Of a stretch of DNA of 64,000 nt, positions 61,466 to 64,000 are shown in pieces. Each line of letters starts with the position of its first letter. Within the stretch, counting starts at the first letter, position 1. The notes below the pieces were generated by a model. The model saw nothing but the letters and a program-made list of their open reading frames with translations. It was not told where the DNA came from and searched no databases. Made by a program: the position numbers and the translations under genes. The DNA lies in assembly GCF_004421185.1 (NCBI RefSeq), contig NZ_LXQB01000010.1, forward strand, positions 24,001 to 88,000, written 5' to 3'. The stretch comes from Methylacidiphilum sp. Yel (GTDB lineage Bacteria > Verrucomicrobiota > Verrucomicrobiia > Methylacidiphilales > Methylacidiphilaceae).

Positions 61466-62209
61466 ATGCGTGCTTTAGTTCTATCTGCTGGATATGCCAC
61501 AAGATTATACCCTTTGACTCTGAACCAGCCTAAAGCCCTCTTGTCCGTTGCTGGAAAACCAATCCTCGATTACATAATGGATAAGCTTTTTGAACTTTCT
61601 TCATTGGATGAAATCTATGTAGTTACTAACCACAAGTTTTATGCGCATTTTGTCCAGTGGAAGCATCGATATAGAGAGAAAGCAACAGTAAAGCTTCCGA
61701 TCCTAGTGTTGGATGATGGTTCAACCACAGAAGAGAATCGACTAGGTGCTATCGGAGATATCCAGTTTGCTATCGAAAAAATGCAACTCCAGGATGATCT
61801 TATTGTTCTTGCAAGCGATAATCTTTTTTGTGCCTCCCTTATATCTTTTGTTTCTGAAGCCAAGCGGAAAAATAGCCCGTTGCTAGGTGTCTACAACTTA
61901 AAAGACAAGCAACTTGCTTCTAAATATGGGGTGGTGAGTTTCGATGCCAATGGCAAACTATGTTATTTTGAAGAAAAACCCCAAAATCCACCGACAAGTT
62001 GGGTAGCAATGGCCCTTTATTTTTTCCCAAAATCGATTTTATCTTTGGTTAAAACGTATCTGAGGGAGCAAAAAAATACTGATCAACCAGGTCGATTTAT
62101 TCAGTGGCTTTATCCTCAAATGGATGTCTATGTTTGGGAATTGACAGGCCCCTGGTTTGATATTGGTAGCAAGGAGACTTTAGAAGCGGCAAACCTTGCT
62201 TTTCAATAA
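61466..62209 (+). CDS. Sugar-1-phosphate nucleotidyltransferase
   Basis: The 247-residue protein is an NTP_transferase with VLSAGYATRLYPLT at 5-18, QPKALLSVAGKPILDY, and a central LASDNLF where the metal-binding aspartate lies. It makes an NDP-sugar. Since murL and murD2 follow on the same strand after only 22 bp, a cell-wall or recycling role is possible, but the donor nucleotide and sugar cannot be read from the sequence. Confidence 0.82.
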   Translation: MRALVLSAGYATRLYPLTLNQPKALLSVAGKPILDYIMDKLFELSSLDEIYVVTNHKFYAHFVQWKHRYREKATVKLPILVLDDGSTTEENRLGAIGDIQFAIEKMQLQDDLIVLASDNLFCASLISFVSEAKRKNSPLLGVYNLKDKQLASKYGVVSFDANGKLCYFEEKPQNPPTSWVAMALYFFPKSILSLVKTYLREQKNTDQPGRFIQWLYPQMDVYVWELTGPWFDIGSKETLEAANLAFQ

Positions 62210-62231: not shown

Positions 62232-63665
62232 ATGCTTGGCATGGAATATGTTCCGACAAAATCAGCAGAGAGGAATTTCCTCCAGTTAAGAAAATTGTTT
62301 CCTCGGTTTGTCTTTAGCCGTTTTTCTTCCGAAATAAGACAAAAGACTCTGTATGTGGAATATGAGTTTTGGACCGGGAAAGACAAGACGGAGGCCATTT
62401 TTTTTCGACCATACTTAAAAGTTTATGGACTGCCACTTGAGCCGAAGAACAACCTTGGCAAATATCTGGATGCTTTTCTTTTTCATATCGGGATGATCGA
62501 ACTCATTAGCTATTGGAAGGCAACCTGTTCTCCACATATTCTCATTGAGACAGCTTTGCTTTCTCCAGAGCAATTGCACTGGTGGTCTAAGCTTTATTGG
62601 AAGGGATTAGGAGAATTTTTTTTTCAAAATGGCATTGAAAAAGCTGCTGATGAGCTGATGCAGATTGAATGTAGATCGCAGAGGCAATTCTCAACTGTGG
62701 AATTCCCTTTTCTAGAAGGCAATGTGCTCCCTATCGGAGGAGGAAAAGATTCCTTTTTAACTTTGGAATGGCTGAAAGAGCAAAAAGAAAAGAATCTCTG
62801 TTTTTTATTGAATCCTGTTCAATCCCAATGGGACACCTTGGAGTATTTCGGCTATCCTCAAAATCAGATCGTTGTGGTGGAACGGAAAATCGATGATCAA
62901 CTCTTAGAGCTTAACAAAAAAGGCTTTCTCAATGGTCACACTCCTTTTTCGGCGCTCTTAGCCTTTATAGGAGTCTTATTGATGGCTTTACACAAAAGAA
63001 AGTATTTCATCACTAGTCATGAATCCAGTGCCAGTCAGCCTACGATCCCTTCCAAAGGTATTAATCATCAATATTCGAAGTCCTTCGAGTTTGAAAAGGA
63101 TTTTCAAAAGTACATGACTAATTTTTTATGTCCTTCTTTTTGCTACTTTAGTTTTTTGCGGCCACTCAATGAAATTCAAATTGCTAGCCATGTTAGTGCT
63201 ATCCCAAAGTCAATACGCATCTTTCAAAGTTGCAATCGTAATCGGAATTCTGGAGGATGGTGTGGACACTGTCCCAAATGTCTCTTTGTCTTTTTAATCT
63301 TTAGGCCATTTGCTCCCAAAAAGGAGCTTGAAGCAATTTTTGGATCCGATCTTCTGGAGAACGAATCATTGTTTGGCCTCTTATTGTCCCTTTGTGGTGA
63401 AGGAACCCATAGGCCTTTTGAATGCGTTGGATCTGAGGAGGAAACTAAAGCGGCGGCAAGCCTTCTTTGGTATCAAGCTAGGAAATCCAAGGAAAATCCG
63501 CCTCTTTTAATCAGAAAACTTATCGAGTCGTATCCCGAATTTTTGTTGACAATGGAAACCCTCCAAGCTTTGTATGATCAAACGGATCGGGAACATCGTC
63601 TACCACAAAAATTTTTGTTGATCCTAAATGAAAAATGTAAGAGAAAAGTCCTTTTTGATGACTGA
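62232..63665 (+). CDS. murL: UDP-MurNAc-L-Ala-L-Glu epimerase MurL
   Basis: MurL converts the terminal L-glutamate of UDP-MurNAc-L-Ala-L-Glu to D-glutamate, a route described in Xanthomonas in place of MurI racemase. The 477-residue protein has the ATP-pyrophosphatase-like loop PIGGGKDSFLTLEW near 171-184, a central HESSASQPTIPSKG stretch, and the cysteine motif WCGHCPKCLFVF near 345-356. Its last 8 bases overlap a MurD-like gene, which fits the MurL-MurD2 pairing. The identification is from recalled family features, so an alternative ATP-PPase role is possible. Confidence 0.75.
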   Translation: MLGMEYVPTKSAERNFLQLRKLFPRFVFSRFSSEIRQKTLYVEYEFWTGKDKTEAIFFRPYLKVYGLPLEPKNNLGKYLDAFLFHIGMIELISYWKATCSPHILIETALLSPEQLHWWSKLYWKGLGEFFFQNGIEKAADELMQIECRSQRQFSTVEFPFLEGNVLPIGGGKDSFLTLEWLKEQKEKNLCFLLNPVQSQWDTLEYFGYPQNQIVVVERKIDDQLLELNKKGFLNGHTPFSALLAFIGVLLMALHKRKYFITSHESSASQPTIPSKGINHQYSKSFEFEKDFQKYMTNFLCPSFCYFSFLRPLNEIQIASHVSAIPKSIRIFQSCNRNRNSGGWCGHCPKCLFVFLIFRPFAPKKELEAIFGSDLLENESLFGLLLSLCGEGTHRPFECVGSEEETKAAASLLWYQARKSKENPPLLIRKLIESYPEFLLTMETLQALYDQTDREHRLPQKFLLILNEKCKRKVLFDD

Positions 63666-64000
63666 GGCTATTCGTAGTTATTTTTTAGGGAAAAAGATCC
63701 TCATTTGGGGGCTTGGATTGGAGGGAATGGCCACTCTTGAATTTCTTTTAACCAATCTTCCTGGAACTTTTTTTTTTGTTAGCGATAGCAATCCCGCTAC
63801 TCTAAAAGCTATTCATAGTCCTTGGATACGACAAATTGAGGAAAACGACCTTTTTAGCTGCATGGAAAATTTCGATGTGATTGTTAAGAGCCCTGGGATT
63901 CGCACCAGCCATCTAGCCATAGAGCCTTCTATAAAAGAAAAAATAGTGTTACAGACCGATCTGTTTCTCCATTTTTGGCCTGGGATAACTATTGGGATAA
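63658..64000 (+). CDS. murD2: MurD2-like UDP-MurNAc-L-alanine-glutamate ligase, N-terminal part (cut by window edge)
   Basis: The frame opens at ATG 63658, overlaps the murL stop and runs off the window. The first 114 residues have the MurD N-terminal domain: ILIWGLGLEGMATLEFL near 14-30, SDSNP, and VIVKSPGIRTS near 81-91, ending just at the ITIGI strand that precedes the ATP loop. MurD adds D-Glu; the MurD2 form adds L-Glu, which the neighbouring MurL would then epimerise. The start is chosen because it is the first in-frame ATG and its overlap fits an operon. Confidence 0.7.
   Translation, partial: MTEAIRSYFLGKKILIWGLGLEGMATLEFLLTNLPGTFFFVSDSNPATLKAIHSPWIRQIEENDLFSCMENFDVIVKSPGIRTSHLAIEPSIKEKIVLQTDLFLHFWPGITIGI

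Follow-up and report, generated by a model that had tools for sequence, protein, structure and literature searches.

MurL and MurD2 homologues as a predicted substitute for glutamate racemase in Methylacidiphilum sp. Yel, with counterparts in Bacteroidales and Lachnospiraceae

We analysed a window of 64,000 nucleotides (nt) from Methylacidiphilum sp. Yel (Verrucomicrobiota; contig NZ_LXQB01000010.1, or C10, positions 24,001–88,000), whose genome assembly has 2.25 Mb and is 99.98% complete. Close to the end of the window lie two overlapping genes, on the forward strand, that are predicted to replace glutamate racemase (MurI) in the supply of D-glutamate (D-Glu). The first, murL (62232..63665; 477 amino acids), codes for a MurL homologue and includes the codons of the PP-loop ATP-binding motif PIGGGKDS (62730..62753, residues 167–174) and those of a predicted zinc site, C334-x9-C344-x2-C347-x2-C350 (63231..63281). 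The second, murD2, codes for a MurD-like ligase predicted to use L-glutamate (L-Glu), and extends from the window (63628..64000) to position 64974 beyond it (L001:7629-8975). It was first called from 63628, giving a product of 448 amino acids; the ATG at 63658, with a product of 438 amino acids, is the likelier start because it leaves an overlap of 8 nt with murL that is identical in length to that in a congener. An original prediction, made from the sequence alone, described here a MurL-like protein and an overlapping MurD-like gene, and this description holds: the first open reading frame (ORF) carries PIGGGKDS and matches the MurL model NF041275, and the next ORF overlaps its end. For the Xanthomonas pair, ligation of L-Glu, an ATP/AMP/Mg requirement and one-way epimerisation are established (PMC8788868, PMC5808125).

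The murL product matched the curated model NF041275 with 227.8 bits (E = 1.8e-67), covering 442 of its 477 residues. This model is a Xanthomonadales equivalog with a cut-off of 700, and the MurL from X. sacchari scores 836.5; because the score of the window protein is far under the cut-off, as expected in a distant lineage, we consider it by sequence a distant homologue of the Xanthomonadales MurL. The nearest sequences outside the order, with 36–46% identity, were from Bacteroidales and Lachnospiraceae (genome_contigs). No Pfam domain was found up to E = 5, and the single protein retrieved nothing from the PDB; with a MurL profile as the query, the sole PDB matches with E < 0.001 were to the PP-loop protein TtuA (8e-4). 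In the MurL tree, the Methylacidiphilales sequences formed one group (85/91) beside Bacteroidales-type MurLs, and those from Clostridia formed one clade (100/99) nested among Bacteroidales, a topology that suggests movement of murL between phyla, in a direction that a tree of sequences picked by similarity to the window MurL does not set. A weak match from genome G126 (66.6 bits, 382 amino acids) is probably not MurL, and a canonical MurD is encoded elsewhere in that genome. MurL-like proteins annotated as hypothetical are also encoded on plasmid pPaSha1 from Pseudonocardia alni (L136), where no MurD adjoins the gene, and on two further Pseudonocardia plasmids.

The adjoining gene codes for a complete ligase of the MurD family (TIGR01087, 308.7 bits; cut-off 212). 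By mutagenesis, the L-Glu specificity of X. oryzae MurD2 was traced to its residues E197 and R358, whose counterparts in the E. coli enzyme are D182 and K348; swaps at these two positions switch the stereospecificity of Xanthomonas MurD2, and K319T makes E. coli MurD able to accept L-Glu (PMC8788868). In E. coli numbering, used from here on, the window ligase has E182, I319, R348, P414 and Y416, and the X. sacchari MurD2 has E, I, R, P and F; both therefore carry the specificity residues of Xanthomonas MurD2, E182 and R348. All 77 MurL-linked ligases examined have I319 and R348, with position 182 occupied by E in 66 and by D in 11, and K319 and K348 are present in 20 out of 20 canonical MurDs, of which 19 come from Verrucomicrobiota and the other from E. 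coli. Nine additional canonical MurDs included two from Oscillospiraceae that combine I319 with K348, and two from Bacilli that combine R348 with K319; the combination of I319 and R348 was found in none of the 29. Since some canonical MurDs carry one or the other residue singly, it is their combination, and neither residue alone, that is diagnostic of MurD2 among these sequences. The two Oscillospiraceae MurDs, from Pusillibacter (L171) and Subdoligranulum (L172), show an intermediate-looking pattern, with I319, N182 and K348. An IQ-TREE phylogeny of 74 ligases, of the kind that the original prediction had called for, was split by a single branch (support 100/99) into the 45 MurL-linked sequences, including those from the window and from X. 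sacchari, and the 29 canonical MurDs; the X. sacchari and G217 ligases form long branches, so that how deep they belong in the tree is uncertain.

The source genome was searched for murI (TIGR00067), for PF01177 racemases and for D-amino-acid transaminase as sources of D-Glu. There was no match to TIGR00067 anywhere in the genome, nor any to the Asp/Glu-racemase superfamily (PF01177), and no D-amino-acid transaminase scored above its cut-off. The class IV aminotransferase nearest to the latter reached 188 bits, versus a cut-off of 277, and 418.6 bits with the branched-chain model NF006185 (cut-off 363); by its profile scores it is a branched-chain aminotransferase, and it was rejected as a source of D-Glu. 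The genome holds a single MurD, which is the one linked to murL. Its dcw cluster, with gene names read from the ORFs, has the order mraW-ftsI-murE-murF-mraY-LysM-ftsW-murG-murC/murB-ddl-ftsQ and no murD, with the gene for a LysM protein standing between mraY and ftsW; in relatives with a canonical MurD, such as G013, murD sits among other mur genes. A genome-wide search for murI and for a second murD had been proposed at the outset as a check on the role of the pair, with the presence of murI counting against it; neither gene was found, and the proposal was not refuted. Many genomes of the phylum, including G001, G005, G021 and G039 from the same class and those of a densely sampled genus (f4 g6), are devoid of murI, of PF01177 racemases and of MurL, yet have a canonical MurD with K319 and K348. 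There is probably at least one additional source of D-Glu in Verrucomicrobiota.

In two other large taxa, MurL and murI did not occur together in any of the genomes sampled. None of the 26 genomes tested among those of the best MurL relatives, from Bacteroidales and Lachnospiraceae, contained a murI over the cut-off. In an even sample of 247 Bacteroidales, MurL was present in 84, one third of the total, and murI in 0 of these 84 versus 148 of the 163 others (Fisher p = 6.8e-51); in 150 Lachnospiraceae the figures were 12 genomes with MurL, and murI in 0 of 12 versus 126 of 138 (p = 1.6e-11), although these tests count genomes as independent when in fact they are not. The pattern is plain, and points to replacement of murI by the MurL pair in both taxa. 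The literature has the route restricted to a small number of genera within the Gammaproteobacteria, the Alphaproteobacteria and the actinobacteria, and mentions orthologues of low similarity in other groups; in open-access publications, to which our search extended (subscription papers fell outside it), there was no report of it in Bacteroidales, Lachnospiraceae or Verrucomicrobiota. From the exclusion of murI and the frequency of MurL in Bacteroidales and Lachnospiraceae, the genome sequences indicate that the route reaches beyond the small set of genera previously reported. The expected extension of the pathway to a distant lineage thus stands, in that the pair is present in Verrucomicrobiota, but this is not the sole such lineage, because the pair also occurs in Lachnospiraceae and, very often, in Bacteroidales.

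MurL was described as having no known conserved domains (PMC5808125). An AlphaFold2 model built on a 44-sequence alignment had a predicted local distance difference test score (pLDDT) of 90.9 and a predicted template modelling score of 0.90. VIA-align placed QatC at the top (Z 17.1; 320 residues, with a root-mean-square deviation of 3.8, for residues 22–429 of the model), followed by QueC in two structures, with Z 12.8 and 12.2; other PP-loop enzymes came next, at around 8.5 and so well below these three. QueC is defined by an SGGxDS loop and a C(x)8CxxCxxC zinc motif (PMC13329287), of which MurL has the variants GGGKDS and C(x)9CxxCxxC; the loop (G169–S174) and C334, C344, C347 and C350 are invariant in the 44 sequences. 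Conversely, the motifs YxQxHxxE, VPxRN and YPDC, present in the QueC alignment, were not found among the conserved columns of MurL, and there was no match to PF06508 in Pfam (E ≤ 5), so that MurL does not appear to be a QueC (preQ0 synthase) proper. The model thus suggests that MurL belongs to the QueC/QatC family of PP-loop proteins, likely a new fold assignment; MurL is mentioned in neither of two QueC-family papers of 2026, one of which is PMC13329287. By analogy with QueC, its four cysteines are inferred to bind zinc. A MurL from another family of the phylum (L096, genome G217) is devoid of the four cysteines (SDS...WSLGSVKS), while its paired MurD keeps I319 and R348, and this pair may bear on whether the site is needed. 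PP-loop pyrophosphatases typically adenylate their substrate, releasing AMP and pyrophosphate (PPi). A requirement for ATP, converted to AMP, was reported for Xanthomonas MurL, and its authors proposed an adenylation; because the products of PP-loop enzymes match this requirement, the predicted fold would fit the adenylation of a carboxylate and lends support to their proposal.

Upstream of murL, separated by 22 bp, is a gene for a sugar-1-phosphate nucleotidyltransferase of 247 amino acids (61466..62209, forward strand; PF00483, E = 7e-36), which is probably co-transcribed with murL-murD2. The order pabB-hprK-HPr-ptsI-nucleotidyltransferase-murL-murD2 is kept in all the sampled loci from Methylacidiphilaceae, whose genomes have 2.2–2.5 Mb each; only murL-murD2 remains of it in a relative from the same order and in those more distant loci that were checked. 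The suggestion that the nucleotidyltransferase belongs to the same unit is thus supported within the family, where the linkage is constant, but was not borne out in the distant lineages checked, in which the gene was not found beside murL, and it is unsupported as a component of the pathway outside Methylacidiphilaceae. Scans for promoters and terminators around the murL-murD2 operon retrieved no more sites than in shuffled sequences. The adjacency of murL and murD2 was seen in the loci from Methylacidiphilales, in Clostridia and in most Bacteroidales loci; the fetched stretches of eleven Bacteroidales loci (L007, L012, L039, L051, L055, L061, L065, L072, L074, L077 and L081) contain murL and no MurD, and in L051 murL comes after argS. 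Further downstream in the Methylacidiphilum locus, a TonB-receptor-like gene on the minus strand (L001:13354-15505) is split into several ORFs and adjoins an intact copy of 873 amino acids; it is probably a pseudogene.

Taken together, the absence of murI, a single MurD with the residues for L-Glu and a position within the MurD2 clade, and the exclusion of MurL and murI elsewhere make it very probable that murL-murD2 is a functional route that replaces glutamate racemase in this bacterium, as the original prediction proposed. In this route, MurD2 would first join L-Glu, with its epimerisation to D-Glu coming after; MurL, as an enzyme of the ATP pyrophosphatase type, would adenylate the alpha-carboxylate of the newly added L-Glu (ATP to AMP + PPi), and the MurE step would then run as usual. 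Several observations weigh against this interpretation. The window MurL is only around 31% identical to that from X. sacchari; the Foldseek match to the same QatC chain, although the top one, is modest (E = 2.5e-4); and the alignment with the QueC profile in hhalign, while pairing GGGKDS and the cysteine ends, is weak (E = 0.0018, probability 15%). Within the window's phylum (n = 289), murI was found in 0 of 8 genomes with a strong MurL versus 77 of 281 others, which is not significant (p = 0.11) because many relatives without MurL are also devoid of murI. Homology, gene pairing, the absence of murI and of a second murD, the specificity residues, the place in the MurD2 clade, the exclusion of murI and the predicted fold are results of computation; that the Verrucomicrobiota enzymes act like the Xanthomonas pair we infer, as we do the order of the chemical steps.

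It is improbable, in our estimation, that the ligase is instead an ordinary MurD working on D-Glu made by another enzyme, such as an aminotransferase or a promiscuous DapF, as proposed for Chlamydia, with MurL doing something else. The genome does have a class IV aminotransferase, our searches for sources of D-Glu covered murI, PF01177 racemases and D-amino-acid transaminase, and the many Verrucomicrobiota with neither murI nor MurL point to a further source in the phylum; however, the aminotransferase is of the branched-chain type, I319 and R348 are never combined in the 29 canonical MurDs, and the strict exclusion of MurL and murI in two other taxa would be left unexplained. More improbable still is that the window protein merely resembles MurL and is another QueC-like enzyme, for defence or nucleobase conjugation, as QatC would be. 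Its closest solved structure is indeed the QatC of an anti-phage system, but the specific profile match is to MurL, a murD2 adjoins the gene in Methylacidiphilales and Clostridia as well as in most of the Bacteroidales loci, and PADLOC gave no defence match at E up to 10, so that a role in defence was rejected.

The pathway itself was already known; beyond the original prediction, the analysis adds how widely the pair has replaced murI and a predicted fold for MurL. We consider it likely that MurL is a QueC-family PP-loop adenylating enzyme with a zinc-type four-cysteine site, repurposed as a peptide epimerase, and that murL-murD2, far from being a rarity of few genera, constitutes a major route to D-Glu that moves between phyla and has displaced murI and the native murD in Methylacidiphilales, in some Lachnospiraceae and in about one third of the species of Bacteroidales. 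A seemingly rare Xanthomonas route would then do the work of MurI in numerous bacteria of the gut, and genomes described as lacking murI would gain an explanation. Its apparent restriction to a fairly small set of genera, rich in pathogenic species, was the ground for proposing the pathway as a target for narrow-spectrum antibiotics (PMC8788868); should it operate in one third of Bacteroidales species and in some Lachnospiraceae of the gut, commensals could be hit by inhibitors as well. Additionally, with the assignment to the QueC fold, the PP-loop and the cysteine site become points at which to test directly how a one-way, ATP-driven epimerase works.

The window pair resembles X. oryzae MurL/MurD2 (XOO_1319/XOO_1320; PMC8788868, PMC5808125) in its match to the MurL profile, in a host without murI, in the adjacent overlapping genes (as seen in X. 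sacchari, L135) and in the E/R/P residues at 182/348/414 plus I319 of MurD2. Conversely, it differs in the low identity of its MurL to the X. sacchari protein, in Tyr416 instead of Phe416, in its neighbours (ptsI and the sugar nucleotidyltransferase) and in belonging to another phylum. The pairs from Bacteroidales and Lachnospiraceae (L002–L081) share its motifs, its MurD2 signature and the lack of murI, but the loci checked show no nucleotidyltransferase linked to the pair, and some Bacteroidales have murL alone (L012, L051). With QueC and QatC, MurL shares the PP-loop fold, an SGGxDS-like loop and a C-terminal C(x)nCxxCxxC, the alignment with QatC also taking in the N-terminal region; its proposed substrate is, however, a uridine diphosphate-N-acetylmuramic acid dipeptide, whereas that of QueC is a deazaguanine. 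Finally, in the system of MurI and canonical MurD, and unlike the route proposed here, MurI racemises free glutamate without a cofactor, and its gene is missing from the genome of the window.
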